Source: a bacterium
Lineage (GTDB): Bacteria; RBG-13-66-14
Direction of reading: 5' to 3'
DNA: 64,000 bases
NCBI GenBank assembly: GCA_035528375.1
Contig: DATKYS010000118.1
Coordinates: forward strand, 1-64,000
How positions within the stretch are numbered: the first letter of the stretch is position 1; the number at the start of each line of letters is the position of its first letter. Shown here in pieces: positions 2 to 34,666 of this stretch. The position numbers were made by a program, and so were the translations under genes. The notes beneath the pieces were generated by a model. That model had not been told where the DNA came from, searched no databases, and saw only the letters and a list, made by a program, of their open reading frames with translations.

Positions 2-1810
2 AATCCCATCCAGGAAGCCGAGAGCATCCGCCATGCCACCTCGGTGCAACAGGCCAGCGACTCAAACGCGTTCACCGTGAGCGTTTCCCACACGGACCCG
101 AAGATGGTGTCCAGGCTGGCGAACACCATCGCCGAGGTCTACGTGGATGAAAATCTGCGCTGGAAACAGGAGCGCGCCCGAAAGGCCCGGGAGTTCATCG
201 GGCAGCAGATCGAAGTGGCCGAAGTCAAGCTGCGGCTGACGGAGGACCTCCTGAGGGAGTACAAGGAAGAGCTGGGCATCGTTTCCTTCACCGAAGAGGC
301 GAGGAACTTGATTCAACGTTTGAGCGGTGTCGAAGAGAGCAAGAACAACCTGGAACGGGAACTCGCCGAGCTCCAGGAACAGCAAAGAACCGCCGAGAAC
401 TACCTGAATCAAGGCGAGGTAAACCTCGACACGCTGACTGCCATCAGTTCCTGGCCCGAATTCCAAACGGACCAGATGTTGAAGGAGATCATCCGGACAA
501 CCGGGGAGCTCACGATCGAGAAAGAGCAGTTGAAGCAAACCTCCGGTCAACTCAACCCCAGGCTGGCCGAGATTGATGGGGAGTTGGGCGCCCTCGAAGA
601 TGACATAGAGAGGCGGCTCGCCTACATCATCACCGCCGGCGCCCTCGGCATATCTATCGAAGGCGTCAAATCCAAACTCGTAGAAACGTCGAGCACCATC
701 TCGGAGTTGACTTCGGAGCTTTCCACCATGCCGCGGGAGGAGATGGAACTCTCCATCCGGGAGCGAAAGAGCGAAGTCGCGTCGAAAATCCACTCACTGC
801 TCCTCGAGCGATACGAGGAGGCGCGCATCAACGAGAGCATGGAAACGGGTGACGTCCGCATCATTGACCGGGCGATACGGCCCACGGCGCCGGTAAGCCC
901 CAACCACGCGTCGGATCTTCTCCTCGGCTTGGCCGTCGGCCTCGTCATCGGAATCGGCCTGGCCATGATCGTCGAAATGAACGACACGACGGTGAAATCG
1001 GCCGATGAAGTCACCAGTCTGACCGGGCTCACAGCGATCGGCACGATCCCGAAAGCGACCGAGGAGTTCGAAGAGCTCGGTGAAGGTCGCCTGATCGTCT
1101 TGGAAAATCCGCGTTCCCCCATCGCCGAAACGTACCGCATCATTCGAACGAACATCCAATACTTCAGCATCGACAAGCAAATCCGCGTTCTTTCCATCAC
1201 GAGTCCCAGCAAGGGTGAGGGGAAGACCACGACCACGGCGAACCTGGGTGTATCCATCGCCCAGCAGGGTTATAAAACCCTCCTGGTGGACACCGATCTG
1301 CGCAAGGCGAAAATGCACCGTTTCTTCAACATCCCCAACACACCCGGTTTCACCGAGCTCATTCTCGGGGACAGAACCGACGAGGAAGTCATCCGACCCA
1401 CCCGGGTCGAAAACCTCTTCATCCTCCCCTCGGGGCACCCGCCGCCGAATCCCTCCGAACTCCTGTCCAGCCGCCGGACACAGGATATCCTCGAACGATT
1501 CCGTCAGGAGTACGAGAAGGTGATTCTGGACACATCCCCCGTCCTGGCGGTGACCGATCCCGCCATCCTGGGAACCCTGGTTGACGGAACCATCCTGGTC
1601 ATCGAAGCCGAGACGAGCGAGGCCGAGGCCGTCAAGGAAGCGGTGAGCCTCCTGAAAAACGCGCGGGCTCAGATCCTGGGCTTCGTTTTGAACAAGGTGG
1701 ATCTCACCAGAACGTACAAATCGCACAGGTACTACCACTATTACCACCACGACGACGAAGCGGAGCGGTCTAAAGGTTCGATTTGGAAACGTTTCCGGGG
1801 CAAAAAGTAA
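2..1810 (+). CDS. Polysaccharide co-polymerase / tyrosine autokinase (Wzc/CpsD-like), 5' truncated
   Basis: The reading frame is open from base 2, so the true start lies left of the window. The N-terminal part is a charged coiled-coil of the Wzz/GNVR type, ended by a hydrophobic membrane segment near 900-970 (LLLGLAVGLVIGIGLAMIV). A cytoplasmic BY-kinase domain follows: Walker A SPSKGEGKTTT near 1202-1234, Walker A' LLVDTDLRKAK near 1280, and Walker B VILDTSP near 1523. The C-terminus carries a tyrosine cluster (RYYHYYHH), the usual autophosphorylation tail. Known members control chain length and export of Wzy-dependent exopolysaccharide or capsule in the inner membrane. As the first gene seen here, it marks the polysaccharide locus. 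Its 3' end overlaps the next gene by 28 bases, so translation is probably coupled. Confidence 0.93.
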   Translation, partial: NPIQEAESIRHATSVQQASDSNAFTVSVSHTDPKMVSRLANTIAEVYVDENLRWKQERARKAREFIGQQIEVAEVKLRLTEDLLREYKEELGIVSFTEEARNLIQRLSGVEESKNNLERELAELQEQQRTAENYLNQGEVNLDTLTAISSWPEFQTDQMLKEIIRTTGELTIEKEQLKQTSGQLNPRLAEIDGELGALEDDIERRLAYIITAGALGISIEGVKSKLVETSSTISELTSELSTMPREEMELSIRERKSEVASKIHSLLLERYEEARINESMETGDVRIIDRAIRPTAPVSPNHASDLLLGLAVGLVIGIGLAMIVEMNDTTVKSADEVTSLTGLTAIGTIPKATEEFEELGEGRLIVLENPRSPIAETYRIIRTNIQYFSIDKQIRVLSITSPSKGEGKTTTTANLGVSIAQQGYKTLLVDTDLRKAKMHRFFNIPNTPGFTELILGDRTDEEVIRPTRVENLFILPSGHPPPNPSELLSSRRTQDILERFRQEYEKVILDTSPVLAVTDPAILGTLVDGTILVIEAETSEAEAVKEAVSLLKNARAQILGFVLNKVDLTRTYKSHRYYHYYHHDDEAERSKGSIWKRFRGKK

Positions 1811-2778
1811 CCCTTTTCACCGCGCTGACGAGTCGAGATCCCGGCGATCTGGCTCGTCACATTGTGGAAACACCGAACGCCCAGGAATGGCTGAAGGAGG
1901 AGCGACTCGCCCCGCTGGCGGATTGGAGGCTGGGCGGCGGGGGTTTGGCACGGGGCTTGCAAAATAACATGCTGATCCCCCTGAAGGAAGAAAGGCGTCG
2001 AGAGGCCCGCTGGGAGTTGGTCCAAACCGCCCCGCTCCTGGACCTTCTGTCGGAGACGGCGGCGCTGCAACCGCTGGCCCTCAAGGGTTTGGATTTCCGC
2101 GCGCGGCTGTACCCGCCCGCCACCCGACCGGCGGTGGACCTGGATCTCTACCTCGAGCGCAGAAAGACAGCCCGGTTCGCCGAGGCGGCGGAAAAAACGG
2201 GCTGGAGACTGGCCACCCGGGGGCGGCTGGGGCGCCGGCTCTGGCGGCGCTGGAATCACCTGATCTGGGGCAAGGACCAAACCATCTTAGAAGTCCACCA
2301 TGACCTCACCGCGCCCGGGAGATACAACGCCCGGTACAGGTTCGGCGAAGAGCCTACACCTCTGGACCTGTACGGGGTCACGCTCTGGGTGCCATCGAGG
2401 GAGGACGCGGCGCTCTTCTGCATGGTCCACCTCTGCGGGAACCACTTCTTCGATCCCCACCTCCTGTCGGTGTACGATATCTGGCTGTTGTGTCCCGGTC
2501 TGGATTGGGGTAAACTTTACACGCTGGCGCGCAAGGCGGGATTGGAACGGACGGTCTCCTTCGCCCTGGCCTACCTGAGGTGCTACCCGACGATGAGGAG
2601 GCTCGTCCCACCCGGAGAACCGCTCAGGCCGGGAAGAAGCGGGATGAATTTTTTCAGGCAGAGGGCGGGAGGGGTGCGGACACGATCCAGGCTGCTGGGC
2701 CTCTACCTCGCGGACCCGCGGATCCGTTCACTGACCTACATCCTCGGCCACCTCGGGGAGAGGCTCGATATTTTCTGA
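1783..2778 (+). CDS. Nucleotidyltransferase-like protein (NTP_transf_5 type)
   Basis: This protein of about 331 residues resembles the uncharacterised nucleotidyltransferase family PF14907. The recognisable motif is LALKGLDFRARLYPP followed by RPAVDLDLYL, where the two aspartates match the family's D-x-D metal-binding pair. The family often occurs in loci for ribosomally made modified peptides beside PqqD-like proteins, and the next gene here is a PqqD-like protein. The start is uncertain. TTG 1783 overlaps the kinase gene, and GTG 1864 is an alternative that keeps the conserved core. The gene ends in a TGATG overlap with the PqqD-like gene, so the two are translationally coupled. The substrate is unknown. 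The family assignment is from motif memory only. Confidence 0.72.
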   Translation: METFPGQKVTLFTALTSRDPGDLARHIVETPNAQEWLKEERLAPLADWRLGGGGLARGLQNNMLIPLKEERRREARWELVQTAPLLDLLSETAALQPLALKGLDFRARLYPPATRPAVDLDLYLERRKTARFAEAAEKTGWRLATRGRLGRRLWRRWNHLIWGKDQTILEVHHDLTAPGRYNARYRFGEEPTPLDLYGVTLWVPSREDAALFCMVHLCGNHFFDPHLLSVYDIWLLCPGLDWGKLYTLARKAGLERTVSFALAYLRCYPTMRRLVPPGEPLRPGRSGMNFFRQRAGGVRTRSRLLGLYLADPRIRSLTYILGHLGERLDIF

Positions 2779-3062
2779 TGAAAACCTACGATCCCGACGC
2801 GGTGCCCGTAAAAGCGGGGCTGATACCCTCCCAGAATGTGGACGGCGAAATTTTCGCCATCACCCCAGAAGACGGGGTACTCCACAACTTCAACGAGGTG
2901 GGGAGTTTCATCTGGAACCTGATTGACGACGAAAAAAGCGTGAGAGAAATTGCAAGTAAGGTGTTGTCGGAGTACGAAGTCGCTCCAGACGCGCTAAAAC
3001 AGGACATGATAGAATTCTTTTCACAATTGCACAAAAAAGGCCTTATCGAGTACCGCCGGTGA
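2778..3062 (+). CDS. PqqD-like peptide carrier protein
   Basis: This is a 94-residue protein of the PqqD (RiPP recognition element) fold. Family landmarks are visible: an N-terminal beta region, the central NEVGSFIWNLIDDEKSVREI segment, and a C-terminal helix ending in FFSQLHKKGLIEYRR. PqqD-type domains bind the leader part of a precursor peptide and present it to a partner radical SAM enzyme. ATG 2778 overlaps the upstream TGA by one base, and the TGA end overlaps the downstream GTG start by four bases. The three genes are therefore a tight cistron. Base composition starts to shift to AT-rich inside this gene. Confidence 0.85.
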   Translation: MKTYDPDAVPVKAGLIPSQNVDGEIFAITPEDGVLHNFNEVGSFIWNLIDDEKSVREIASKVLSEYEVAPDALKQDMIEFFSQLHKKGLIEYRR

Positions 3063-4138
3063 AAAAACAAGTGACACAAACCGAGAATATAAACGCTTTC
3101 GATAAGCTGCTGTGGAAAGCGATTCGGTACCACATACCATACATCGTGACGTTCGAACTCACTTACAGCTGCAATCAGAAGTGCGTGCACTGTTACCTGA
3201 CCCATGATGACCCCTATCAGAAAGAGATGCCCGTCGAGGAATGGTTGAGGGCAATCGGAGAGTTGAAGGAGCTCGGAACTTTCTATGTATCCGTCACGGG
3301 CGGTGAACCGACTCTCTACCCGGGATTTTGGGAGATAATCGAGGAGCTTCACAGGCAAAACATGCTCATCCGCGTTTTCACCAACGCGACGACATTTACA
3401 AAGGACGACATTGACCATTTAATTCGATGCGGCGTGCAATATGTAGATATATCCATTCATGGATCAGATCGTGATACCCACGAAGAAATTACCGGTGTGC
3501 CGGGTAGTTACGACCGTACGGTCAATGCAATAAAGCAATTGAAAGCCGCTGGAATTCATGTGATGTTGAAGGGCAGCCTGTTAAAAAGCAATTATAAAAA
3601 AGTCAACAATTTAAATAGGCTGATGCTGTCTTTAGGAGGATATCCACATATCTCACATAACATTACACCGGACAACAACGGGGGTCAGCAACCACTTGAA
3701 TATGCAATTTCCGAAGTTGAATTCTGTTATGTTTTTGATAATTTTTATAAAACCGATTACGACTTGCCCGATGTAGAGGAAGATCACATACCTTTGGCTA
3801 TAAGGTGTACGGCTGGTTTCTCAACGATGACGATAACCCCGAATGGAACCGTTATCCCCTGCGTTCAGTTCAGGGCTCCCCTGGGGAACATCCAAAGAAA
3901 CAGCTTGAGAAGGATATGGCATCATTCCCCTTTGTGCCAGTATTTAAGCGGATTAACACGCCTGTCGCCCTCTGAATGTACCGGGTGCAAATTTATAACC
4001 TTTTGTATTCGATGTCCCGGTCTATCGTTCATCGAAACGGGGAGTCTGTGGAAACCATCACCCAACGCCTGTAGAGCTGCCGAGCACTACTTCAACGCCT
4101 ACTACAGAAGTCGAGGAAAAAGGAGCGCAAGTGCTTAA
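3059..4138 (+). CDS. Radical SAM / SPASM peptide-maturase-like enzyme
   Basis: The 359-residue protein begins at GTG 3059. It has the radical SAM cluster motif CNQKCVHC (Cys38, Cys42, Cys45) and the SAM-binding TGGEPTLYP. The C-terminal SPASM region has cysteines at about 251, 269, 308, 311, 317, 320 and 339, enough for two auxiliary iron-sulfur clusters. Known SPASM enzymes paired with PqqD-like proteins form C-C, C-S or related crosslinks in short peptides. The neighbours fit that role: a PqqD-like gene directly upstream and a Cys-rich small ORF directly downstream. The gene is visibly more AT-rich and has different codon use from the surrounding locus, which suggests horizontal acquisition. 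The exact reaction cannot be read from sequence. Confidence 0.88.
   Translation: MKKQVTQTENINAFDKLLWKAIRYHIPYIVTFELTYSCNQKCVHCYLTHDDPYQKEMPVEEWLRAIGELKELGTFYVSVTGGEPTLYPGFWEIIEELHRQNMLIRVFTNATTFTKDDIDHLIRCGVQYVDISIHGSDRDTHEEITGVPGSYDRTVNAIKQLKAAGIHVMLKGSLLKSNYKKVNNLNRLMLSLGGYPHISHNITPDNNGGQQPLEYAISEVEFCYVFDNFYKTDYDLPDVEEDHIPLAIRCTAGFSTMTITPNGTVIPCVQFRAPLGNIQRNSLRRIWHHSPLCQYLSGLTRLSPSECTGCKFITFCIRCPGLSFIETGSLWKPSPNACRAAEHYFNAYYRSRGKRSASA
4121..4125 (+). promoter_or_regulatory. Ribosome binding site of the Cys-rich peptide
   Basis: AGGAG lies five bases before GTG 4131, inside the 3' end of the radical SAM gene. This near-ideal site is the main support that the very short ORF downstream is translated. 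Confidence 0.65.
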
Positions 4139-4313
4139 AAAAACGTATACGGCACCCTTCATCTCGAGCAAGCTCATCTTTCAGGAAGCATCGTTGAAGT
4201 GTGTGTACGCACAAAGCTCCGTCAGCAAGTGCCAAAAACATACAACAAGCTGCAACTATCCCACTCCTGCGAGTACGTCCGGGTGTTGCTTGATCTGGCC
4301 CTTCGATTCTTAG
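4131..4313 (+). CDS. Small Cys-rich peptide, candidate RiPP precursor
   Basis: This 60-residue ORF starts at GTG 4131, overlaps the radical SAM stop by eight bases and has a strong ribosome binding site. The first half is leader-like (MLKKTYTAPFISSKLIF) and holds no cysteine. The second half is rich in Cys, Ser and Thr, with cysteines at 24, 34, 41, 52 and 53, and ends in LIWPFDS. The pattern K-x-Y-x-x-P then S-x-x-x-x-F resembles, from memory, leaders of other small peptides encoded beside PqqD/radical SAM pairs. No transmembrane segment or known domain is present. I infer that it is the substrate of the upstream SPASM enzyme, with crosslinks at the core cysteines. An alternative is a remnant ORF, but position and ribosome binding site argue against that. 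Confidence 0.66.
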   Translation: MLKKTYTAPFISSKLIFQEASLKCVYAQSSVSKCQKHTTSCNYPTPASTSGCCLIWPFDS

Positions 4314-4442
4314 CGGGGAGATTCGACACCTTGGGGCGGCGTTAAGCACCGTCGAATCCCTTGAACCAACGAGGGTTGGATCAAACAAAACCTGAAAGCC
4401 GGGCTCATAGCGGAGGCGCTGCGCGCGGGCGGCCCCCGATGG

Positions 4443-4847
4443 GTGAAGAGCCGTGGCCGATGCCACGGTGAATTGATACCCGACGGGGCCGAGATTCTTC
4501 TCGAGCCTTTCGGGGAAACACCTCCGCGGGTCGGCGAGATAGCAGCCTATTTGAATCCCGACGGCCTCGAGGTCGTCCACCGCCTCTGCCACCGGGACGC
4601 CGACGGCTGGTGGGGCAACGCGGACACCGTGCTGGCGATGGAACGCGCCGGGAGCCTTATCGGCCGCGTCACGGCCCGCCGGTGGAAAAGCTCCGTCCGC
4701 GGCGTGAAACCGATGCCCGCCCGGGCCAGGCTGGCCTGGTTCGTCCACCGGCTCTACCGACGCTCCCACGGTCTGGGCGGCGCCTGGGGGCGGATTACCC
4801 TGCAACTCGTCCAACGGCTCAAACCACGACTCTACCCCACCCGATGA
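4443..4847 (+). CDS. S24/S26 signal-peptidase-like protein, catalytic residues replaced
   Basis: The 134-residue ORF from GTG 4443 carries the beta-barrel pattern of SipW-type S24/S26 peptidases: LIPDGAEILLEPF, then VGEIAAY, VVHRLC and LIGRV. Where family members have G-x-S-M-x-P with the catalytic serine, this protein has GRCHGEL, so serine is replaced by cysteine. The usual K-G-D-A region reads GNAD, so the lysine position also appears lost. Homology continues upstream of the GTG: the frame is open from 4365 and reads LKAGLIAEALRAGG, typical of the family N-terminus. No ATG, GTG or TTG starts that stretch, so CTG 4392 or a decayed start is possible. Such peptidases are common near RiPP genes. 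It may be a non-catalytic relative or a dying gene. Confidence 0.6.
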   Translation: MKSRGRCHGELIPDGAEILLEPFGETPPRVGEIAAYLNPDGLEVVHRLCHRDADGWWGNADTVLAMERAGSLIGRVTARRWKSSVRGVKPMPARARLAWFVHRLYRRSHGLGGAWGRITLQLVQRLKPRLYPTR

Positions 4848-4851
4848 GGAC

Positions 4852-6174
4852 ATGAACCACAACGAACTCGTGAAAAAACTGACAGGGGGTCCGGCGGTTT
4901 TCGGCGTCATCGGACTGGGCTACGTGGGGCTGCCCCTCGCCCTGGAGTTCGCCGAGGCCGGCATCCGCGTCGTCGGCTTCGACATAGACCCGTCAAAAGT
5001 AGAGTTTCTCCGAAAAGGCGAGAGCTACATCCAGCAGATACCGGCCGGGCGGATCAAACCGTACGTGGACGGCGGCCTTCTCGACGCGACCGGCGACCTC
5101 GGCCGCCTGGGCGAAGTTGACGTCATCGCCATCTGCGTGCCCACGCCGCTCGACGATCACCGGCAGCCGGACCTGAGCTTCATCGAGGCCACGTCCCGGG
5201 ACGTGGCCCGTCGGCTCGGGAAGGGACAGGTGGTGATTCTCGAGTCCACCACCTACCCCGGCACCACCCGGGAGGTCGTTCTGCCCATCCTCGAGGAGGG
5301 ATCGGGCCTGAAAGGCGGGTCGGACTTCTTCCTCGCCTTCTCCCCGGAGCGGGAGGACCCGGGCAACAAGGAGTATCGGACCCGGACGATTCCCAAGGTC
5401 ATCGGCGCGCTGACGCCGGCGGGGCTGGACCTGGTCAAGGGCTTCTACGACCGGGTCTTCGAGCAAACGGTCCCGGTGTCCAGCCTGGAGGTGGCCGAGA
5501 TGACCAAAATCTTCGAGAACACCTTCCGGGCCGTGAACATCGCCCTGGTCAACGAGCTGAAGATGCTGGCGCTGCGCATGGGGGTCAACCTGCACGAGGT
5601 GATAGACGCCGCCTCGACGAAGCCCTTCGGGTTCATGCCCTTCCGCCCGGGGCCGGGCCTCGGGGGACACTGCATCCCCATAGACCCCTTCTACCTCACC
5701 TGGAAGGCCCACGAGTACGAGTTCAGCACCCGATTCATCGAGCTGGCCGGCGAGATAAACACGGGGATGCCCCGTTTCGTGGTGGAGCGCACCGCCGAGG
5801 CGCTCAACCACGCGGGCAAGCCGCTCCGGGGCTCGAAAATTTTAATCCTCGGCATCTCCTACAAGCCGGACATAGACGACATGCGCGAAAGCCCGGCCGT
5901 GCCGGTCATGGAGGGCCTCCTGAAGCGCGGGGCGGAGGTGGATTACCACGACCCGTACATCAGGAAGATGCCCGCCACGCGCCAGACCAAACTGCGCCTG
6001 GAGAGCATCCCCCTGAAGAATTACTCCGAGCTCGCGGCCTACGACGCCGTGGTCGTCGTGACCAACCACTCCGCCTACGATTACCGGGAGGTGGTCCGCC
6101 GCGCGGCCCTGGTGGTGGACACGCGGAACGCCACCGCGGGAATCCCCAACGATGGGAACGTGTGGCTGGCCTAG
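4852..6174 (+). CDS. Nucleotide sugar dehydrogenase (UDP-HexNAc 6-dehydrogenase type)
   Basis: The 440-residue protein fits the UDP-glucose/GDP-mannose dehydrogenase family, closest in pattern to UDP-GlcNAc or UDP-ManNAc 6-dehydrogenases (WbpA/WecC). The N-terminal NAD-binding motif is GVIGLGYVGLPLALEFAEAG. The middle helices contain EMTKIFENTFRAVNIALVNE. The catalytic cysteine sits in PGLGGHCIPIDPFYL, and the C-terminal Rossmann domain contains LILGISYKPDIDDMRESP. It oxidises C6 of an activated amino sugar to a uronate in two NAD-dependent steps. ATG 4852 follows a GAGGA site, and a terminator-like hairpin follows the stop. The exact substrate is inferred from the surrounding nonulosonate genes. 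Confidence 0.9.
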   Translation: MNHNELVKKLTGGPAVFGVIGLGYVGLPLALEFAEAGIRVVGFDIDPSKVEFLRKGESYIQQIPAGRIKPYVDGGLLDATGDLGRLGEVDVIAICVPTPLDDHRQPDLSFIEATSRDVARRLGKGQVVILESTTYPGTTREVVLPILEEGSGLKGGSDFFLAFSPEREDPGNKEYRTRTIPKVIGALTPAGLDLVKGFYDRVFEQTVPVSSLEVAEMTKIFENTFRAVNIALVNELKMLALRMGVNLHEVIDAASTKPFGFMPFRPGPGLGGHCIPIDPFYLTWKAHEYEFSTRFIELAGEINTGMPRFVVERTAEALNHAGKPLRGSKILILGISYKPDIDDMRESPAVPVMEGLLKRGAEVDYHDPYIRKMPATRQTKLRLESIPLKNYSELAAYDAVVVVTNHSAYDYREVVRRAALVVDTRNATAGIPNDGNVWLA

Positions 6175-6294: not shown

Positions 6295-6990
6295 ATGGAG
6301 ATACTCGCCGTCATCCCCGCCCGGGGCTCATCCAAGGGCCTGGAGCGGAAGAACCTCGCTCCCCTGGGAGGGAGGCCGCTGTTGGCCTACACGGCCGACT
6401 GCGTCCTGGGGGCCGTCCATTCACTCCGGGCGGTCCTGTCCACCGAGGACGACGAAATAGCGAGCCTGGGACGCCGCCTGGGCCTCGAGGTTCCCTTCCG
6501 GCGCCCCGTCGAGCTGGCGGGAGACGCATCCACCTCCCTGGAGGTCCTCCAGCACGCCCTGGCAGGCCTGCACGCCGACGAGGGGTACGCCCCGGAATGG
6601 GTGGTGCTTCTGCAGCCGACCTCGCCGCTGCGGACCGCCGCCCATCTGGACGCCTCGCTGGACCTGCTTCTTTCCGGGGGGTTCGATTCCCTGATTTCGC
6701 TGACCCCCATGCGTCAGAACCCGGCCTGGGCTTACCGCATCACCGACGGGCTGGCCGAGCCCATCGAGCGGGAACGACCCGACCGCCGGCAGGGGTTGCC
6801 CGATTTTTACTACCCCAACGGGGCGATTTACGCGACCTCCCCGGAGCTTTTAGCCGCCGACCGCATCCTCGGCGACCGCTGCGCCGCCTTCGTGATGGAG
6901 CCCCGGGAGTCGGTGGACGTGGACGACTCCTGGGACATGGCGGTGGCCGAGGCCGGTCTCATCCACGCCAAAAGAGCCCCGAGATGGTAG
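6295..6990 (+). CDS. CMP-nonulosonate (acylneuraminate) cytidylyltransferase
   Basis: The 231-residue protein begins with the family P-loop-like motif IPARGSSKGLERKNL used by NeuA/LegF/PseF enzymes to bind CTP. LLQPTSPLRT and the PNGAIYAT stretch are also typical. It activates a nine-carbon sugar acid to its CMP form, the donor for glycosyltransferases. The stop codon overlaps the next gene, a NeuB-type synthase, by seven bases (ATGGTAG), so the two enzymes are co-translated. Sequence alone does not tell sialic from legionaminic or pseudaminic acid. Confidence 0.88.
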   Translation: MEILAVIPARGSSKGLERKNLAPLGGRPLLAYTADCVLGAVHSLRAVLSTEDDEIASLGRRLGLEVPFRRPVELAGDASTSLEVLQHALAGLHADEGYAPEWVVLLQPTSPLRTAAHLDASLDLLLSGGFDSLISLTPMRQNPAWAYRITDGLAEPIERERPDRRQGLPDFYYPNGAIYATSPELLAADRILGDRCAAFVMEPRESVDVDDSWDMAVAEAGLIHAKRAPRW

Positions 6991-8024
6991 CCGCCTTCCG
7001 TGTGGGTGGGCGCCTGTTGACGTCGGGCGAACCGGTGTACATCGTCGCCGAGGGTGGGGTGAACCACGACGGCGACCCGGAGAAGGCCCTTGAACTGGCG
7101 GCCGCCGCCGGGGAGTGCGGCGCCGACGCGGTCAAGTTCCAACTCTTCACCCCCGAGAACCTCGTCGCCGCCGATGCGCCCCTGGCGCGCTACCAGAGGC
7201 ATAACGCCGGCGGGAACGACCAGTTGGCCATGCTCGAGCGATTGAAACTCTCCGAGCGGGACTTCGCCCGGGTGAAATCCCGCTGCGACGGACTGGGCCT
7301 GGATTTCACCCTCTCGGCCTTCTCCGCGGGGGACGTGCGCGCCGCCGCGGAGCTGGGCGTGCCGGTGCTGAAAATCGGCTCCGGCGAGCTCACCGATCCT
7401 TTCGTGCTGGACGCCGCGCGGGATACCGGCCTCCCGCTCATGGTCTCCACGGGGATGGCGAATCTGGAAGACGTCGCCTGGGCCGTGAACCGCCTGGGGA
7501 AGGCGGAAATTCTCCTCCTCCACTGCACCAGCGCGTACCCCGCCCCGGCGGAGGAGCTGAACCTGCGCGCCCTGACCGCCCTGCGCGAACGCTTCGACCG
7601 TCCCGTGGGCCTCTCCGACCACAGCCCGGGCACCCTGGCCGCATGCCTGGCCGTGGCCCTGGGCGCCTGCGCCGTGGAGAAACACTTCACCCTGGACACG
7701 GGCGCCGCGGGTCCCGACCACGCGGCCAGCCTGGACCCGACCGGTTTTCGGGAACTAGTCCGCGGGATACGCAACGCGGAGCGCATCCTGGGCGATGGAG
7801 AGAAACGCTCCACCCCCTCGGAAGAGGACACCCGGTCGGTCTCGCGGAAGGGCCTCCGAACGACCCGGAGGCTGGAGGCGGGTCACCGCCTGGCCCCGGG
7901 TGATTTAACCGCCAAGCGGCCGGCGGTGGGCCTGGACCCCCGCGGGGTCGAACGCCTGTACGGGAGAAAACTGAAAGGGACGCTGGAGCCGGATCAACCC
8001 CTGACCAAAGACGATCTGGAATAA
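6984..8024 (+). CDS. N-acylneuraminate / legionaminate synthase (NeuB/LegI type)
   Basis: From ATG 6984 the protein has 346 residues. The N-terminal TIM barrel contains VAEGGVNHDGDPEKALELA, ADAVKFQLF, LKIGSGEL, LLHCTSAYP and GLSDHSPG, all hallmarks of NeuB enzymes. The C-terminal part after EEDTRSVSRKGL is a SAF (antifreeze-like) domain ending in a typical VERLYGRKL region. It condenses phosphoenolpyruvate with an N-acyl hexosamine to a nonulosonic acid. The frame extends further upstream, but that part overlaps the cytidylyltransferase and lacks family similarity, so ATG 6984 is chosen. Confidence 0.92.
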   Translation: MVAAFRVGGRLLTSGEPVYIVAEGGVNHDGDPEKALELAAAAGECGADAVKFQLFTPENLVAADAPLARYQRHNAGGNDQLAMLERLKLSERDFARVKSRCDGLGLDFTLSAFSAGDVRAAAELGVPVLKIGSGELTDPFVLDAARDTGLPLMVSTGMANLEDVAWAVNRLGKAEILLLHCTSAYPAPAEELNLRALTALRERFDRPVGLSDHSPGTLAACLAVALGACAVEKHFTLDTGAAGPDHAASLDPTGFRELVRGIRNAERILGDGEKRSTPSEEDTRSVSRKGLRTTRRLEAGHRLAPGDLTAKRPAVGLDPRGVERLYGRKLKGTLEPDQPLTKDDLE

Positions 8025-8044
8025 TCGAAGCCTTTTAAAGAGGG

Positions 8045-8869
8045 GTGAGCGTGGAGTACGAAATCTACGATACCGCGCCCGATTCGCTGCCCACCGAGGC
8101 CATCCGGAAGAGGAGCGTGGCCTCGATCCACCGGCGCTTCGGAAACGCGGACCTCGCCGGTTGGACCATCGCCAACCTGGGGCTGGCCTCGGGGGAAAGG
8201 GTCATAGACATCGGCTGCGGGGTGGGGCAAATAACGATCCCGCTCGCCCGGGCGGTGGCGCCGGACGGCCACGCCAAGGGGATAGACAACGAGCCGGACT
8301 ACGCGGCGGCCTGGGACGCTCTCGAAAAGGACGACCTGCCCGTCTCCTTCGACCTCTGGCGGTGGGAGGCTCCCTGGCCCTGGCCCGACGGCTCCTACGA
8401 CGCGGCGGTGTCCAACTTCACCCTCACCATCCTGCCCGATCTCGACCTCGCCCTGAGGGAAATCGGGCGTATCCTCCGCCCCAACGGTCGGTTGCTCGTC
8501 ACCGGTTCCGCCCCCGACGACCAGGCCGAGTTCATGCAGATGCACTGGGAGCTGGTGGGGGAGCACCCCACCGCCGAGATGGCCGCCCGGGGGAGGGACT
8601 TGACCGCCGAGGTCCTGCCGCTTTTGGACGAAAGCCTCGGCCCCGGCAAACGGATCGAATTCGCCAACGACCTGAGCTTCCCCCGGCCCCAGGACGTGGC
8701 CGAGTTTTACGCGACCGGGAAGCTCTACGGGCTCCTGGCCACCGATTCCCGCACGCGCGACGATCTCTTGGACCTGATTTTCCACGCCGCCGAGGCGCAC
8801 ATCGCCAAGTTCGGCACCTACGTCGTCAAGCGAAGGCTCCTGGGCGGGCTCTACATCAAGAAGCCCTGA
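8045..8869 (+). CDS. Class I SAM-dependent methyltransferase
   Basis: The 274-residue protein contains motif I VIDIGCGVGQITIPLA, the acidic binding residue in GIDNEPD, and the post-I region DGSYDAAVSNFTLTILPDL followed by LRPNGRLLVTG. This is the UbiE/Methyltransf_11 pattern. Start GTG 8045 lies after AAAGAGG, with GTG 8051 as an in-frame alternative. It sits between the synthase and epimerase genes, one base before the epimerase start, so I infer that it O- or N-methylates a nonulosonate precursor or the finished glycan. The acceptor cannot be read from the sequence. Confidence 0.8.
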   Translation: MSVEYEIYDTAPDSLPTEAIRKRSVASIHRRFGNADLAGWTIANLGLASGERVIDIGCGVGQITIPLARAVAPDGHAKGIDNEPDYAAAWDALEKDDLPVSFDLWRWEAPWPWPDGSYDAAVSNFTLTILPDLDLALREIGRILRPNGRLLVTGSAPDDQAEFMQMHWELVGEHPTAEMAARGRDLTAEVLPLLDESLGPGKRIEFANDLSFPRPQDVAEFYATGKLYGLLATDSRTRDDLLDLIFHAAEAHIAKFGTYVVKRRLLGGLYIKKP

Positions 8870-8870
8870 C

Positions 8871-10028
8871 TTGACGCACCGGCGGATAGCCATCCTCACC
8901 GGTTGCCGCTCCGATTACGGCCTGCTCCGCCCCTTCATCCGGCGGGTGAAGGGGGAACCGGGGGCGGAGCTGGTACTCTATGCGGCGGCCGGTCACCTCT
9001 CGCCCTCCCGCGGGATGACGGTGGAGGAGATACGCCGGGACGGGTTCGAGCCGGTGACCCTGGCCCCCGTGGTCGAGGATGACGACACTCCGGCGGGCAT
9101 GGCGGAGCTGGCCTCCCGGGTGACCGGGGAGCTGGCGCGCCTGTGGATCCGCGACCGGCCGGACTGGCTCGTTGTGCTGGGGGACCGGGTCGAGGTGCTG
9201 GGCGCCGCCGTTGCTGCTTGGTACTGCCGCGTCCCCCTGGCCCAGTTCCACGCCGGGGACCTGTCACTGGTGGACGACGGGCCCCGGCACGCCGTCAGCC
9301 GTCTGGCCCATCTTCTATTCCCCGCCACCCGGTCCGCGGCCCAGAGGCTGCTCGGATGGGGGGAGGAGGCCTGGAGGGTGCACCCGGTGGGCTCCCTGGC
9401 GGCCGACCACGCCCTTTCCAGCCCACCCCTCGGCCCCGGGAAGCTCCGCGCCCTGGGCGAACGGGTGGGCCTGAACCTGGACGGCGATTTCCTGGTGCTG
9501 GTATACCACCCCCTCCCCGGGGAGCCGGAGAAGACGGCTAAGGGGCTTGCGGCGTGCCTGAAGGCGCTGGACGCCGCCTCGCTCCCCGCCCTCGTCCTCC
9601 ACCCCAACGCCGACGCCGGGGGACGGCCGATCGCCCTGGAACTGGAACGGTGGGTGGGACGTGGGCCGCACCGCGCTCTCCAGGCCAGCCTGGCGCCGGA
9701 GTCGTTCACCGAAATCCTGCGCCGGACGCGGGCCCTCGTGGGCAACTCCTCGGCGGGGCTCATCGAGTGCTCCGTCCTGGGAACGCCGGCAGTCAACGTA
9801 GGACCAAGACAGATGGGTCGCGAGCGCGGGGCCAACGTCCTCGACGCCGACGCGGACTCGGGAGAAGTGCGGGCGGCGCTCGAAAAAATCCTCGCCGAGG
9901 CGGGCATCCGCGAACGGCTCCTACGGCAGCCCTCCCCTTACGGTGACGGCGGTGCGGCGCCCAGGGCGCTCAAGAAAATATTGGAAACACCGACCGACGA
10001 TACCCTCCTGGATAAATCGCTGAGGTGA
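8871..10028 (+). CDS. Hydrolysing NDP-HexNAc 2-epimerase (NeuC/LegG type)
   Basis: The 385-residue GT-B-fold protein has the WecB/NeuC pattern: ILTGCRSDYGLLRPFI at the N-terminus, VLGDRVEVL, AQFHAGDLS and the C-terminal GNSSAGLIECSVLGTPAVNVGPRQ. NeuC-class enzymes release UDP and invert C2, giving free ManNAc or its 4-acetamido analogue for the NeuB step. The start TTG 8871 lies one base after the methyltransferase stop. No other start fits the conserved first strand, which argues for tight coupling. Confidence 0.87.
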   Translation: MTHRRIAILTGCRSDYGLLRPFIRRVKGEPGAELVLYAAAGHLSPSRGMTVEEIRRDGFEPVTLAPVVEDDDTPAGMAELASRVTGELARLWIRDRPDWLVVLGDRVEVLGAAVAAWYCRVPLAQFHAGDLSLVDDGPRHAVSRLAHLLFPATRSAAQRLLGWGEEAWRVHPVGSLAADHALSSPPLGPGKLRALGERVGLNLDGDFLVLVYHPLPGEPEKTAKGLAACLKALDAASLPALVLHPNADAGGRPIALELERWVGRGPHRALQASLAPESFTEILRRTRALVGNSSAGLIECSVLGTPAVNVGPRQMGRERGANVLDADADSGEVRAALEKILAEAGIRERLLRQPSPYGDGGAAPRALKKILETPTDDTLLDKSLR

Positions 10029-13311: not shown

Positions 13312-15139
13312 GGCGCCATCTCTTCTGGGTCTGGCCGGATACGTCTCCCCGAAGGCACTCGAGCGGGAGATTGACCGCCAGAGGCGCATAAATCGCGAAC
13401 CGACCGTGACGGACCTTCTCCCGGGCGTGCTCGGCGCGTCGTTGTTGAAGGTCTGCCGGGACAAAGGCGTCACCGTGACGACCTCCGAGGCGATTCTGGG
13501 GCGGGAGGGAATACGACGGGTGGACGCCGAGTCCAAGGAGCTCACCGACCGCGCGCTCGAGACCCTCGGTCGGGACGACGTGACGCGGGTCATCTGGCAC
13601 CTCTTCTACTGGTACCGCCTGCGCCGGGCATGCCTCGGCGCAGCGATTCTGGACTCGGCGCTGACGGAGAGCTTTTACGCGACGACCCTTCTGGGCGGGG
13701 AAGAGCTCCTGGCCGGGGTTCTCGACGAGGTTTGCCGGGGTAAAGGCGTCCGCCTCACCGCGCCCGGCATGGTCCCCACTTCCTTCACCCGCCGCCTGCG
13801 GACCTCCCGGGTCGGCGCTGGACCGAGCATCACACTGAACGAAGGGCTGGCCCGCTGGCTCAAGCTGGCGGTGTCGCTCCTGCGTTCCTTAGGTAAAAGA
13901 GAGAGCCCCACCCCCGTGGATGGCCTGATTCTGACGACCCTTCCCTCCGAAAGGGCGACCTGGCGGTCCGTATTGGATGGGATACCCGAAGGGTTGCGGG
14001 TCGGGCTGGCGACGACATACCGGGTGAGGCCCCGCGATCTCCCTCCCGCCGTCCGCCGGTACAGCCTCGACGTGCGGGTCCGGTCGAAACGCCTCGACGA
14101 ATGGATAGGGACCTACCGGAGTTACTGGCGGATCGGACCGGAGTTGCCCCAAATCCTGCCCCGCCTGCCGTGGAGGGGGCTGGACCTGGGCGAGTACACC
14201 CGGGGCTGGCTCACGAGCGTGATTCGGCAGCTCTTCTGGAGGTTGATTCCCCGGGCGTCGGCCCTCGAGGAACTGATCGAAGCGGTGAGGCCGCGGCTGC
14301 TCGTCAGCCTTACGGAGCGCAACGATCTCGTCAACCTCGCCTTCCGGATGGCCGCCGCGAGGGGGATTCCCACCCTGGCGATCGAATCCCACGACATGGT
14401 CTGGGACTCGCCGCTCTTCGGACGGGTGGAAGCGGACAGGCTGGCGGTGAGCGGCGCATACTCCGAAAACATTTACGCCAAGAACGGGGTCCCCCGGGAG
14501 AAGATGGTCGTCACCGGTCAACCCTCCTTCGACGGGCTGGTCCGGTACCGTGAAAAAGAGCCCGTTAAAAAAGAGACCGATGAACGCCTGCTGGTCGTCA
14601 TCACCCAGCCGCCCGACGTCGCACTCACCGATGACACGCGCCGAGAGATGCTGCGGGGGGCGTTCCTCGCCGCTCGGGAGATACCCCGGCTTCGGGTTTT
14701 AGTCAAACCGCACCCCCGCGAAAACCTCGGGGACCTGCGCCTGATTTTGAGTGAACTTGGGGCGCCCCGGGATGCGCTCCTGCCGAAGAAGCTGGATCTA
14801 TACGGTCTGCTCGCCTCCTCGGACGTCATCCTCACGGCCTTCTCCACCGTGGGCGTGGAGGCGATCATGCTGGGGCGGCCGGTGGTGGTCTTCAGGACCG
14901 GTGAAGAGCCCCCGGTGCTGCCCTACGTGGATTCAGAGGCGGTCCTGGGGGCCAAAGACGCGGAGCAGATAGCGGAAAGGATAAAACTGGTAATCGAAGG
15001 TGAAGTCATCCATAAGCTGGCCCAAGGCCGCGACGAATACATCGCCCGCCACGAGTGCGCGGCGGACGGAGGCTCCGGGGCCAGGGTGGTCCGGCTCATC
15101 CTCGAGATGCTGAACGGAGAAGGTCGTGCCGGGATATAG
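13304..15139 (+). CDS. GT-B glycosyltransferase / CDP-glycerophosphotransferase-like protein
   Basis: The 611-residue protein starts at ATG 13304, overlapping the flippase stop (ATGATTAG); GTG 13271 is an in-frame alternative. The N-terminal half is unrecognised. The C-terminal half has the fold marks of CDP-glycerol glycerophosphotransferases and capsule transferases: GIPTLAIESHDMVWDSP, SGAYSENIYAKNGVP, MVVTGQPSFDGL, VLVKPHPRENL and LLASSDVILTAFSTVGVEA. It probably adds a sugar or polyol phosphate, or a nonulosonic acid, to the repeat unit. The donor is not readable. Its end overlaps the next gene by 14 bases. Confidence 0.68.
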   Translation: MIRAPSLLGLAGYVSPKALEREIDRQRRINREPTVTDLLPGVLGASLLKVCRDKGVTVTTSEAILGREGIRRVDAESKELTDRALETLGRDDVTRVIWHLFYWYRLRRACLGAAILDSALTESFYATTLLGGEELLAGVLDEVCRGKGVRLTAPGMVPTSFTRRLRTSRVGAGPSITLNEGLARWLKLAVSLLRSLGKRESPTPVDGLILTTLPSERATWRSVLDGIPEGLRVGLATTYRVRPRDLPPAVRRYSLDVRVRSKRLDEWIGTYRSYWRIGPELPQILPRLPWRGLDLGEYTRGWLTSVIRQLFWRLIPRASALEELIEAVRPRLLVSLTERNDLVNLAFRMAAARGIPTLAIESHDMVWDSPLFGRVEADRLAVSGAYSENIYAKNGVPREKMVVTGQPSFDGLVRYREKEPVKKETDERLLVVITQPPDVALTDDTRREMLRGAFLAAREIPRLRVLVKPHPRENLGDLRLILSELGAPRDALLPKKLDLYGLLASSDVILTAFSTVGVEAIMLGRPVVVFRTGEEPPVLPYVDSEAVLGAKDAEQIAERIKLVIEGEVIHKLAQGRDEYIARHECAADGGSGARVVRLILEMLNGEGRAGI

Positions 15140-16337
15140 GGTGCTTTGCATTTCGATACTGATGCCCTACCCACCGGTGGGCGGGGGGGAGAGTAAATTT
15201 TTCCACCTCCTGCGCGAGGTTTCCAGGTTCCACGAGGTGGACCTCCTCCTCTTCCCACACGTCGCGCCCGAGCAAGGGGACATTGAAGGTTTACGCCCCC
15301 ATGCCCGTAGTATCAGAATCGAACCGTTCCGACACCGACCGGACTGCCGGGATAAACTACGCTCCCTCGTAAGTCCATTCCCCCTCCCCTTCTCCTTCTT
15401 CCGCAATTCACTCATCCGGGATGCAGTGAAGCGGGCTCTGAGTGATGGAATATATGATCTCCTGCACGTGGAGGGGTGTTTTCTCGGATACTCTATCGTG
15501 GGCCTGAGAACGCCGCCGCGGCTGATCGTCCCGCACGACGCCTATTACAGAAATTATATGGAGAACCTTAAAATGGCTCCCTGGCGCAAAAAGCCGCCCA
15601 TTGCCATTGACTTTCTGAAGTTCCGACGTATCGAGCCGCGTCTGTACGGCTATTACGACGCCGTGGGGATGTGTACCAACCTGGATGCCCAGGCCGTGAA
15701 GAAACTGAACCCCGCCCTTCACGTGGGCGTCGTCTCCAACGGTGCCGACCCCTGTGCCACGGCTCCCGAACCGCATGCCGAGGAATTCCCCAGCCTCGTT
15801 TTCAGCGGCTCATTCGATTACCCCCCCAACGAACTGGCCGCGCTGAGGCTCATGGGGAGGATTGCCCCCCAGCTACGCAGGAGGTGGCCGAAGCTCGCGG
15901 TTTTCATCGTCGGAAACCGCCCCACCCGACGCATGAAGAGGGCCGCCGCCGGTAATCCCGGGAACGTCATCACCGGTCGGGTGGAATCGGTGTCGGAGTG
16001 GATTGCCCGGGGATCGGTGTACTGCAGCCCTCTATCGTACGGCGTGGGTTTCAAGAACAAGGTGCCGGAGGCCTGGGCCGCCGCCAGACCCCTCGTGGCC
16101 ACGCCCAAGACCATGGAGGGAATCGAGTTCATCCCCGGTCGGGACGCCCTGGTGGCTGAAACCGATGCCGATTTGGTCCGCGCCTGTGCTATGCTTCTGG
16201 ATGATGCGGACATGCGAAGGAATATCGGGGAATGGGGCAGGAAACGGGTTGACGAACGGTACAACTGGCCGCTTCTGGCCAAAGATCTCCTCGAGCTGTA
16301 CGACTACGTAGCCGCCCAACCGGCCAATACGAGATGA
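15126..16337 (+). CDS. Glycosyltransferase family 4-like
   Basis: The 403-residue protein from GTG 15126 has the GT-B layout. The N-terminus is CISILMPYPPVGGGESKFFHLL, with the glycine-rich loop usual for GT4 acceptor domains. The C-terminal nucleotide-sugar domain contains SLVFSGSFDYPPNELA, AVFIVGNRPT and FKNKVPEAWAAARPLVATPKTMEGI, where the conserved acidic residues of the E-x7-E motif are altered. Overlaps with both neighbours show a single transcription unit. The linkage and sugar are unknown. Confidence 0.8.
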   Translation: MPGYRVLCISILMPYPPVGGGESKFFHLLREVSRFHEVDLLLFPHVAPEQGDIEGLRPHARSIRIEPFRHRPDCRDKLRSLVSPFPLPFSFFRNSLIRDAVKRALSDGIYDLLHVEGCFLGYSIVGLRTPPRLIVPHDAYYRNYMENLKMAPWRKKPPIAIDFLKFRRIEPRLYGYYDAVGMCTNLDAQAVKKLNPALHVGVVSNGADPCATAPEPHAEEFPSLVFSGSFDYPPNELAALRLMGRIAPQLRRRWPKLAVFIVGNRPTRRMKRAAAGNPGNVITGRVESVSEWIARGSVYCSPLSYGVGFKNKVPEAWAAARPLVATPKTMEGIEFIPGRDALVAETDADLVRACAMLLDDADMRRNIGEWGRKRVDERYNWPLLAKDLLELYDYVAAQPANTR

Positions 16338-17767
16338 ATTTTTCGCAACCGGGGATATTCCAAAGGTCCAACGAGAGATGGCTGGAATACGCCCGTCGGC
16401 ACCGCGATCTCACCGCGTGCGCACTGCTGGCGACGGCGTATCTGGTCGTCTGCGTATTTTTACGACTGCCCTACTACTACGTCTGCCTGGGTATAGTGGG
16501 CGTCATCGCCCTGGGCATCTCCCTGAAGTACCCCTTCACCGCGTTTCTCGGTTACATATTCCTCGTCAACTTCCTCCCCTACGGCTACATCGAGTCGAAT
16601 ACCTTCACCCTGGCCAAAATCGGGGGGGTTCTTCTCGTCGCCGTGACCCTCGCCGTAACGGCGATCAGGACACCGGAGTATGGGCAGCGGCTCAAACGGG
16701 CCTTCGACAAGCGGGGCATCGTGGTCCTCATCCTGATAGCGGCCGGCGCCTTCTCGACCATCATCAGCCACAACCCCCAGTCGGCCTTCGTCGAGCAGCA
16801 CTTTCAATTCCTGGTCCTCTTCGTCCTGACGCGCGTGTACGTGGACACGGAGAAACGGTTATGGTGGTTGCTCGTGATCATCCTCCTGGCCCGAGGCATG
16901 GATGGCGCGCTGGGGCTGTACCAGTACATCACGGTACCGGAGGCCGGTAGAATCGCGGGAAATTTTCTCGATCCAAACGAGTACGCCTGCTACTCTGTGG
17001 TTGCGCTTCCCATCGCGGTTTATCTCGCCCAATACCGGAAGAGCAAAGTAACCTGGGCCTTTTTTATCGCGCTGGGCCTCCTCACGTTCATCGCAGTCAT
17101 CATCTCCTTCTCCCGCGCCGGTTTCGTAACTCTGGCGCTCATCCTCCTAGTCATCTTCTTCATACCGGTGATAAAACTGAGAAACCGCTTGATTCTGCTG
17201 CTCCTCACCGTCGTGCTCATCATCGCGTTCATCCCTTTCGAATACTGGTCGCGGATCGAAACCCTGAACTCCCTCTTCGGGGATGAGGGCACGGATCAGT
17301 CCGTGATAATTAGAAAAAGACAGGTGGACACCTCCATCCGCCTGTTTTTGGAAAATCCGATCCTCGGTGTGGGGTACATGCGGTACCGAACCGCCCCCGA
17401 GAAGCTGCTGGGCGGTTACATCATCAAACGAGGCCGCACCGGGGAACACTCGACGATGCTCCAGGTCCTCGTCGAGTTCGGCCTGATAGGATTCATCCCC
17501 TTCGTCGTTCTGATTATCCTCTCCTTCTGGTCGGGTATTCGCGCGGTGAAACTCGCCAAGCTGGCCGGTGACCAGGGGATTCGACTCCTGTCCACGGCAA
17601 CGACGCTCTCCTTCACCTCTTTTATAATATTCAGTTTCATGCTGGGAACTTACACCAAATATCTGTATCTCTATCTCGTGCTGCCCATGGTGGCTTACGA
17701 TATAGCGATCGAAAAGCTGTCGGGCCCGTTGGCGGAGCGGGAGGTCTTACGAAGAGGACATCGGTAG
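16334..17767 (+). CDS. O-antigen polymerase / ligase (Wzy/WaaL-like)
   Basis: The 477-residue protein has about 11-12 hydrophobic helices and the Wzy_C hallmark region. IISFSRAGFVTLALILL is followed by a large periplasmic loop (residues about 300-370) with NPILGVGYMRY and HSTMLQVLVEFGLIGF, where His and Gly residues typical of ligases and polymerases occur. It either polymerises repeat units made by this locus or ligates glycan to a lipid or protein acceptor. ATG 16334 overlaps the upstream stop by four bases. With Wzx and the Wzc-like kinase nearby, a polymerase role is most likely. Confidence 0.84.
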   Translation: MNFSQPGIFQRSNERWLEYARRHRDLTACALLATAYLVVCVFLRLPYYYVCLGIVGVIALGISLKYPFTAFLGYIFLVNFLPYGYIESNTFTLAKIGGVLLVAVTLAVTAIRTPEYGQRLKRAFDKRGIVVLILIAAGAFSTIISHNPQSAFVEQHFQFLVLFVLTRVYVDTEKRLWWLLVIILLARGMDGALGLYQYITVPEAGRIAGNFLDPNEYACYSVVALPIAVYLAQYRKSKVTWAFFIALGLLTFIAVIISFSRAGFVTLALILLVIFFIPVIKLRNRLILLLLTVVLIIAFIPFEYWSRIETLNSLFGDEGTDQSVIIRKRQVDTSIRLFLENPILGVGYMRYRTAPEKLLGGYIIKRGRTGEHSTMLQVLVEFGLIGFIPFVVLIILSFWSGIRAVKLAKLAGDQGIRLLSTATTLSFTSFIIFSFMLGTYTKYLYLYLVLPMVAYDIAIEKLSGPLAEREVLRRGHR

Positions 17768-24180: not shown

Positions 24181-24972
24181 TCACTGCGCGAAGACGCTCT
24201 TGAGGCTGCCCCAGGTTACCTCAGCCACACCCGATACGTTGTCGGTGAGGAAGTTCATCATGTTCTTGAACATGTTGACCGTAACGGGCGTTTGTGACAT
24301 ACGCCACCATTCGGCGGCGTCACGGTTGCCGTTCCAGTACACCACGATGCCGCCTAGGGGCGGAACCACCTCCGTGACGAGGATTTTCGCCGGTCCCACG
24401 CCGTGGTCGCCGGTAACGGTGACGGCCACCGCGTACGTCACCGGCAGCTTCGGTTCGGCCATGTCGTGGTCGGAGGCATAGGCTATGATATCGTAGGTTC
24501 CGTCGTAAAAACCGGCCTCGCCGTCGGCGACCCAGTTGTTCGGATTGGTGACGGTGAACTGTTCGCAGAAGGGGCAGTCGCCGTAGATTGCGGAGCCGAC
24601 CAGTTCGGCCATCAGCGGGTCGTTGGGGCTGCCCAGGGAATCCTCCCCGGTCACCACCAGGAAGTTGCCCTCGCCGACCCACTTCTGCATGACCTGGTAC
24701 TCGCTTTCCAGGATGGCCCGGTTGTCGTTGTACCAGAGGATGATGTCGTAATCCAAGAGGAATCTTAAATCCGCCGATTTATTCATAATCCAGTTGTTGT
24801 GCCAGTGATCGAAACTGATGCCCATGTCGGTGAGGACCTGCTCCACACTGTCCAGATTGTTGTTGTCGTCGGGCATGCCGTAATCGGGGGAGGAGTCGTC
24901 CAGGAGTAAAAGATTGTAAGCCGACGCACCGAGGACCATCGCGAAGCAAAGAGTGATAGCGGTAAGTTTCAT
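24181..24972 (-). CDS. Secreted protein of the VLLVDD type, paralogue A
   Basis: The 263-residue protein has a signal peptide (MKLTAITLCFAMVLGASA) and then NLLLLDDSSPDYGMP, an alpha/beta stretch with DIILWYNDNRA, a GNFLVVTGEDSLG segment and GGIVVYWNGNRDAAEWWR. It is clearly paralogous to the next gene upstream, with the same order of motifs and similar length. The pattern resembles the glutamine-amidotransferase-like fold of GldG/DUF4350 or ThuA proteins, without a visible catalytic Cys. The function is unknown. It is probably exported to the periplasm or surface. Confidence 0.75.
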   Translation of the reverse strand: MKLTAITLCFAMVLGASAYNLLLLDDSSPDYGMPDDNNNLDSVEQVLTDMGISFDHWHNNWIMNKSADLRFLLDYDIILWYNDNRAILESEYQVMQKWVGEGNFLVVTGEDSLGSPNDPLMAELVGSAIYGDCPFCEQFTVTNPNNWVADGEAGFYDGTYDIIAYASDHDMAEPKLPVTYAVAVTVTGDHGVGPAKILVTEVVPPLGGIVVYWNGNRDAAEWWRMSQTPVTVNMFKNMMNFLTDNVSGVAEVTWGSLKSVFAQ

Positions 24973-25047
24973 CTCTCGTCCCCCCGATCAGAGGTTACTT
25001 TTTGTTGAAAAAATCTAATCCCGAGAAAAACAGAACATACCGGAGAT

Positions 25048-25077
25048 ATTGTACACCAACCAGGGTTACGGTGTAAA
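25048..25077 (-). promoter_or_regulatory. Sigma70-type promoter for paralogue A
   Basis: Read leftward, TTTACA and TACAAT are separated by 18 bases. It lies across the stop codon of paralogue B, so each paralogue may be transcribed separately. Confidence 0.4.
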
Positions 25078-25854: not shown

Positions 25855-25951
25855 GACTCGCCCCCTTCCCTCAGCCTCCGGCAGACCGTTTCCACCCCTG
25901 AAACCGCCGGGGCGCGTCGGGAAACCTGGTTGATTCCTCCAAGCCATTTTA

Positions 25952-25980
25952 AATATAGCACCGGAGTTCCTCTGCGTCAA
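25952..25980 (-). promoter_or_regulatory. Sigma70-type promoter for paralogue B
   Basis: Read leftward, TTGACG and TATATT are separated by 17 bases, about 100 bases before ATG 25854. A weaker rightward pair (TTGATT at 25930, TATAGC at 25954) overlaps it and could serve ispE. Confidence 0.6.
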
Positions 25981-34579: not shown

Positions 34580-34608
34580 CGACTCCCCTTTTTCCAACCA
34601 TTCTACCA

Positions 34609-34639: not shown

Positions 34640-34666
34640 CTTTGTCAAGGGCTGATTCGGTCCCGC

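Follow-up and report, generated by a model that had tools for sequence, protein, structure and literature searches.

Which product is made by a small peptide cassette set among surface-polysaccharide genes? This question is raised by the first 64,000 nucleotides (the window) of contig DATKYS010000118.1 from a bacterium of the GTDB lineage RBG-13-66-14 (assembly GCA_035528375.1; contig C118 of genome G000 in our numbering), the window starting at the first base of the contig. A preliminary description had placed here a cassette for a ribosomally synthesized and post-translationally modified peptide (RiPP), with a radical S-adenosylmethionine (SAM)/SPASM enzyme, inside a surface-glycan locus, and this assignment is well supported by a recurring gene order, a conserved family of precursors and the kinship of the SPASM enzyme with SkfB, PqqE and CteB. 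We propose, with a probability of roughly 0.6, that the product is a RiPP whose Cys residues are cross-linked by radical chemistry and whose Ser/Thr tail receives first a phosphate and later a sugar or nucleotide, and that it is made in a nonulosonic-acid glycan locus.

Gene order, precursor family and the Ser/Thr tail

The window's SPASM protein was searched against 61 genomes, and the loci were compared locally. The order Wzc, NTP_transf_5, PqqD-like, SPASM, peptide and S24/S26 signal-peptidase-like (S26-like) gene is kept in three genomes of the same genus and three of the same family, and a UDP-sugar dehydrogenase gene comes next in all six but one, whose contig ends first. Since the same order recurs in these relatives, the cassette is not a chance assembly; the four-gene order which the preliminary description suggested looking for in related genomes is present in six genomes of the family. 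The RiPP reading also withstands both objections that had been foreseen for it, an order that does not recur and a non-peptide substrate. A scan of genome contigs with the same SPASM protein retrieved a single distant relative only.

A profile built from ten precursors found homologues in all 14 phylum genomes examined as well as in five lineages beyond the phylum, and in each of the 14 the precursor gene adjoins those of PqqD and SPASM. In genome G098 a single operon holds the genes for S26, an HPr-kinase-like protein, PqqD, precursor, SPASM and NTP_transf_5, and five of its relatives agree with this order up to the ends of their contigs. G051 has all six parts plus extra genes; its divergent precursor was found with an E value of 5e-4 by the first profile and was not recovered by a second one. 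NTP_transf_5, kinase, PqqD and SPASM occur in G057, with no S26 or precursor found there, and in genomes of the phylum of G277, NTP_transf_5 lies near PqqD, SPASM and precursor, the kinase being nearby in some. As judged by sequence similarity, the same peptide family recurs in several bacterial phyla.

The ten-member alignment has invariant Y6, P9, S13, F17, C24 and C34, and the shared leader reads K-Y-x-x-P-x-[hydrophobic]-x-S-x-x-[hydrophobic]-F, followed by a first Cys. The cores, which have from 2 to 5 Cys, differ from one another in both length and sequence. A small precursor gene with a constant leader and a variable core thus adjoins the SPASM gene, as in RiPP clusters with a SPASM maturase. 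None of the precursors tested is recognised by any NCBIfam or Pfam model.

Every one of the 50 precursors collected, from 30 genomes, ends in Ser or Thr (45 Ser, 5 Thr), as against 63 of the 525 long open reading frames (ORFs) at the same loci (12%). The 50 are related and not independent draws; when one precursor per lineage (seven) is set against the 12% background, a value of 3.6e-7 is obtained. The search did not select for the tail, since the profile's N-terminal half accounted for most matches. This universal Ser/Thr tail is a new observation. About nine precursors of the family are spread over several contigs of G117 (L099, L100, L105, L106 and others), several in tandem; a distant SPASM gene lies near one of them, and all those collected from this genome end in Ser/Thr.

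The maturase has radical SAM and SPASM domains with full Cys sets (CxxxCxxC and the seven-Cys SPASM pattern), and its nearest solved structures are SkfB (best PDB match, 1.7e-25), PqqE and CteB. No NCBIfam equivalog reaches its cut-off, and no named sactipeptide or ranthipeptide model takes in either the maturase or the precursor. For the PqqD-like protein, the best NCBIfam model is lasso_PqqD_Bac, at 48.5 bits below its cut-off of 80. Elsewhere in the genome, a 614-residue ORF (G000:C72:30354-31550, locus L035) contains a PqqD-like stretch (28.7 bits) and gives another radical SAM/SPASM match, at 29% identity; many phylum genomes have second matches of this kind, in frames of 456-581 residues, which form a separate system.

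Candidate tail enzymes and the signal-peptidase-like protein

Modification of a C-terminal Ser has precedents among lasso peptides. PadeK phosphorylates this residue in paeninodin (PMC9266682), and the nucleotidyltransferase N of pseudomycoidin adds one or two hexoses to the Ser-phosphate (PMC8498205).

The DxD motif of NTP_transf_5 (D110, D112) is invariant. Each of the 14 phylum genomes has one copy, directly after Wzc wherever the flank was read, including all seven genomes of the window's family. Among 280 sampled genomes, PF14907 scores above its cut-off in 99; it is found in all five verified precursor-bearing genomes outside the phylum versus 80 of the 261 others (Fisher p = 0.003), a co-occurrence that we take as support only, the sample being small and the five genomes having been noticed first through their precursor. 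On a Paenibacillus plasmid, a PF14907 gene (208 bits) is followed by genes for an Asn synthase, an HPrK-like kinase and Transglut_core3, and because this lasso cluster carries a PF14907 gene, lasso gene N looks like a member of that family. At locus L155, no lasso precursor was recognised by the Y..P motif. The window's NTP_transf_5 gave no plasmid match as query, and a divergent homologue did; an NTP_transf_5 alignment matched no solved structure. At two other plasmid loci (L157 and L156), NTP_transf_5 has as neighbour either a tyrosine autokinase or a group made up of an ABC transporter, glycosyltransferases and, at some distance, an HPr kinase.

Elsewhere in the phylum, outside the window's family, a gene for an HPr-kinase-like protein immediately precedes the precursor or PqqD gene, the exception being G008, where the contig ends. 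All seven genomes of the window's family have their own member of this kinase family at a separate locus (G000:C137:70814-71641 in this genome), and outside the family this protein as query retrieves the kinases of precursor clusters. For the kinase, the best-scoring models are the HprK-related and ScmC ones, though below their cut-offs, and the P-loop, the His and the Asp/Glu motif are present. Because alignment against solved structures brings up mainly generic P-loop proteins, the link to HPrK rests on the NCBIfam and Pfam models and these motifs. A C-terminal Ser together with an HPrK-like kinase, the combination that defines the phosphorylated lasso subgroup, is found here, with the kinase in the genome but unlinked. 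A Maf-like gene adjoins the kinase gene in the window's genus (L032, 6556-7155) and the SPASM gene in G057 (L109, 5255-6735), and this neighbour may mark an ancestral linkage.

The S26-like protein, aligned with homologues that include canonical ones, matches the profiles of SEC11 (2.2e-8) and, weakly, LexA. In the window's family C7 and H46 are invariant: the column of the catalytic Ser holds the Cys, the His is kept and KGD is lost. Homologues outside this family are plain signal-peptidase relatives with SMxP, HRV/HRL and KGD, and the G051 protein scores above the cut-off of TIGR02228. The protein of the window's family may work as a Cys/His enzyme or bind the leader without catalysis; a single-sequence AlphaFold model was uninformative (predicted local distance difference test score 40.8). 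The preliminary description had put a peptidase-like protein 129 bases behind the precursor. An ORF does begin at 4443, a GTG that is the first ATG/GTG/TTG, but the gap is partly coding, as homology extends upstream of this codon both here and in the related genomes; the true start probably lies near 4365-4400 and may be a rare codon.

Divergent core and layout of the locus

The preliminary description called the whole cassette AT-rich. This holds for the PqqD-SPASM-precursor core (G+C fraction 0.46-0.50) but not for NTP_transf_5 (0.64) and the S26-like gene (0.68), which match their surroundings. Compared with its two nearest relatives (G001 and G002), this genome has 85-93% identity for Wzc, the S26-like protein and the UDP-sugar dehydrogenase, as against about 60% for SPASM and 48-50% for the precursor; between the two relatives these last values are 83% and 78%. 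In a sliding window, DNA identity to the nearest relative is ~0.88, drops to 0.50-0.71 (about 55%) in the core and returns to 0.90, with sharp edges at about 2.9 kb, within pqqD, and at about 4.38 kb, 3′ of the precursor. The low-identity core coincides with a G+C fraction of 0.38-0.53 in this genome only. Within the core, 136 sites unite G001 with G002 versus 24 and 32 for the alternative splits, and the branch leading to this genome has a length of 0.51 versus about 0.04 in the flanks.

We read the core as a homologous replacement of a specificity module, PqqD-SPASM-precursor, and the confinement of the AT-richness to the core as following from this swap. Accelerated evolution of three genes together with a change in base composition is a less likely explanation. 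Horizontal gain of the whole cassette was considered and dropped, the foreign look being confined to the core. If the core was swapped, recognition protein, maturase and precursor would be exchanged between strains as one unit, while tail enzyme and peptidase remain.

The features of the locus are collected in Table 1. The NTP_transf_5, PqqD and SPASM genes and the five-Cys, 60-residue ORF are all present as had been described, with their domains confirmed; the overlaps are 28 nucleotides for Wzc/NTP_transf_5, 1 for NTP_transf_5/PqqD, 4 for PqqD/SPASM and 8 for SPASM/precursor. Flanking polysaccharide genes had also been noted correctly, with Wzc upstream, and the UDP-sugar dehydrogenase and nonulosonic-acid genes downstream. 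Among the latter, TIGR03568 (NeuC) scores above its cut-off, and TIGR03584 and TIGR03569 score below theirs.

Table 1. Features at the left end of the window (positions in the window; RRE, RiPP recognition element; BY-kinase, bacterial tyrosine kinase)
Feature	Position	Strand	Evidence and remarks
Wzc/BY-kinase C-terminal part (chain-length determinant and tyrosine autokinase)	2..1810	+	TIGR01007 201.5 bits, above cut-off; truncated by contig start; upstream flank
NTP_transf_5 nucleotidyltransferase	1783..2778	+	PF14907 89.9 bits, cut-off 31.2; KG...R...DxD motif; proposed tail-modifying enzyme
PqqD-like RRE, leader-binding chaperone	2778..3062	+	PF05402 64.4 bits, cut-off 23.4; 3′ part within putative swapped core
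Radical SAM/SPASM peptide maturase	3059..4138	+	PF04055 102.7 bits, PF13186 45.8 bits, both above cut-off
Precursor peptide MLKKTYTAPFISSKLIFQEASLKC...WPFDS, 60 aa	4131..4313	+	Leader Y..P...S...F, five Cys, C-terminal Ser
S24/S26 signal-peptidase-like protein	4443..4847	+	RGxCxG: Cys replaces catalytic Ser; VHRL His retained
Putative swapped core (end of PqqD, SPASM, precursor)	2900..4380	.	Low GC, divergent, conserved flanks on both sides
UDP-sugar dehydrogenase, downstream flank	4852..6174	+	TIGR03026 422.9 bits, above cut-off 189.8
Nonulosonic-acid genes of glycan locus	6295..10028	+	PseF-like cytidylyltransferase (6295), NeuB-like synthase (6987), methyltransferase (8045), NeuC (8871)

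Further along the window, relatives of a glycosyltransferase and an O-ligase of the PEP-CTERM/XrtA type lie at 15126-17767 (TIGR03087 and TIGR03097, both below cut-off). Despite these relatives, no PF09721 match (exosortase) was obtained in the genome, and anchoring of the product by an exosortase was dropped for this reason. Two adjacent minus-strand proteins at 24181-25980 look secreted and have similar sequences, with LLLDD.../VLLVDD... starts; a third protein (33479-34648, minus strand) has the common motif as LLVDDDDG, and the three are possibly paralogues.

Proposed pathway, its rivals and the known systems

From the observed gene content and conservation, the tail Ser/Thr, the kinase and NTP_transf_5 homologies and the core pattern, we infer the following steps and their order. 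The PqqD-like protein would bind the leader (Y..P...S...F) and pass the precursor on for cross-linking of its core Cys residues, most likely as thioethers, by the radical chemistry of the SPASM enzyme. The HPr-kinase-like enzyme, encoded elsewhere in the genome and presumed to act in trans, would phosphorylate the invariant C-terminal Ser/Thr, and NTP_transf_5 would then add a sugar or nucleotide to the phosphorylated tail, as the N enzyme does in pseudomycoidin. The S26-like protein would remove or hold the leader. Such a decorated tail, perhaps sugar-linked, is predicted because conserved Ser/Thr ends occur together with lasso-type tail enzymes, and the product would probably be displayed on the surface or secreted, since the genes of the window's family belong to a nonulosonic-acid capsule/exopolysaccharide (EPS) operon.

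Several points weigh against this proposal. The product is known here as a prediction from genes. The kinase of the window's family is unlinked, standing beside Maf and CBS-domain genes in the genomes inspected, and the kinase models score far under their curated cut-offs (28.9 of 200). At the column of the catalytic Ser of SMxP, the local S26-like peptidase has a Cys, and no dedicated exporter is seen in the cassette. Finally, NTP_transf_5 stays beside Wzc throughout the phylum even where the peptide genes lie elsewhere, and occurs in glycan loci without an annotated peptide gene on an Azospirillum (L157) and a Crinalium (L156) plasmid, so that it may serve the glycan only.

This last point agrees with a rival view, in which the cassette makes an ordinary sactipeptide- or ranthipeptide-like RiPP, a free antagonist or signal that is secreted, while NTP_transf_5 and the S26-like protein belong to the glycan operon and the tail Ser is a recognition feature. 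SkfB and CteB as nearest solved relatives and a core swapped like those of polymorphic weapons agree with it as well. However, NTP_transf_5 lies within or adjoins the peptide operon in G098 and its relatives, G051, G057 and the phylum of G277, the Ser/Thr at the tail never varies and a lasso-type kinase belongs to the set, which makes this view rather unlikely. Like PqqE and the mycofactocin maturases, the SPASM enzyme could also serve to mature a larger protein or a redox cofactor, with the 60-residue ORF as an accessory. Presence in 14 of 14 phylum genomes suggests a housekeeping role, and the two genes resemble PqqD/PqqE; yet the precursor core is hypervariable (48-54% identity within the genus versus up to about 90% in the flanks), and some genomes have two to nine different precursors, unlike a cofactor precursor. 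We regard this as highly improbable.

A special case of the tail-modification pathway would be a covalent bond between the phospho-Ser/Thr tail of the peptide and the nonulosonic-acid capsule/EPS. Such attachment is possible, given the cassette's place in that operon and the constant neighbourhood of Wzc and NTP_transf_5 across the phylum. It agrees with the cassette's fixed position, within the window's family, between Wzc and UDP-sugar dehydrogenase, with the tail Ser/Thr and its lasso-type kinase and nucleotidyltransferase partners, with the sugars that enzyme N puts on Ser-phosphate and with the lack of an exosortase as alternative anchor in this genome. Caution is called for because families f2-f5 of the phylum have their peptide genes away from the glycan locus and NTP_transf_5 is found in glycan loci without a peptide; no ligase step was identified either, and we consider the joined product quite doubtful. 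Slightly less doubtful, though still unlikely, is the broad view that these peptides form an undescribed, widespread RiPP class, in which a phospho-Ser/Thr tail links a cross-linked core to sugars, here to the capsule, and the peptide type is swapped by module.

If the tail-modification pathway is correct, phosphorylation and glycosylation of the tail would be a general RiPP module, common to lasso and radical-SAM peptides across several phyla, and a function would be assigned to the 'uncharacterised nucleotidyltransferase' family PF14907 and to the ScmC-like kinases of such clusters. The leader motif with an obligatory C-terminal Ser/Thr gives a simple mining rule for such precursors, and exchange of the module within a surface locus points to diversifying selection acting on what it makes. 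A literature search, with subscription papers (notably Haft and Basu 2011) outside its reach, found no paper that combines radical SAM, HPr-kinase and tail Ser.

Among the known systems, the SynChlorMet cassette is alike in that its HPrK-like ScmC, PqqD-like ScmD and SPASM ScmE models all detect members of the set. However, the scores (ScmE 136 of 400, ScmD 38 of 100, ScmC 24-45 of 125) stay far below the curated equivalog cut-offs of ScmC/D/E/F, the window has no second SPASM maturase and the precursors are unmatched. The HPr-rel-A system (TIGR04352/TIGR04353) likewise joins an HprK-related kinase to a PqqD protein, but both models fall far below cut-off (28.9 of 200 and 14.1 of 35). With sactipeptides and ranthipeptides (SkfB, AlbA, CteB) the cassette shares a SPASM maturase and a Cys-rich core; it differs in its separate RRE, kinase, NTP_transf_5 and Ser/Thr tail. 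Leaders of lasso peptides carry a Gly/Thr pattern, which the precursor leader here lacks, and neither the Asn-synthase-like cyclase C nor the transglutaminase-like B2 is among the scanned proteins of the cassette and its neighbours. The likeness to phosphorylated and glycosylated lasso peptides lies in the PqqD-like leader binder, the C-terminal Ser, the HPr-kinase-like enzyme and the nucleotidyltransferase, whereas the SPASM enzyme and the Cys-rich core set this cassette apart. Taken together, and going by gene content, the system resembles a new RiPP family in which a SPASM maturase, in place of the lasso cyclase, is paired with the tail-modifying enzymes of lasso peptides.

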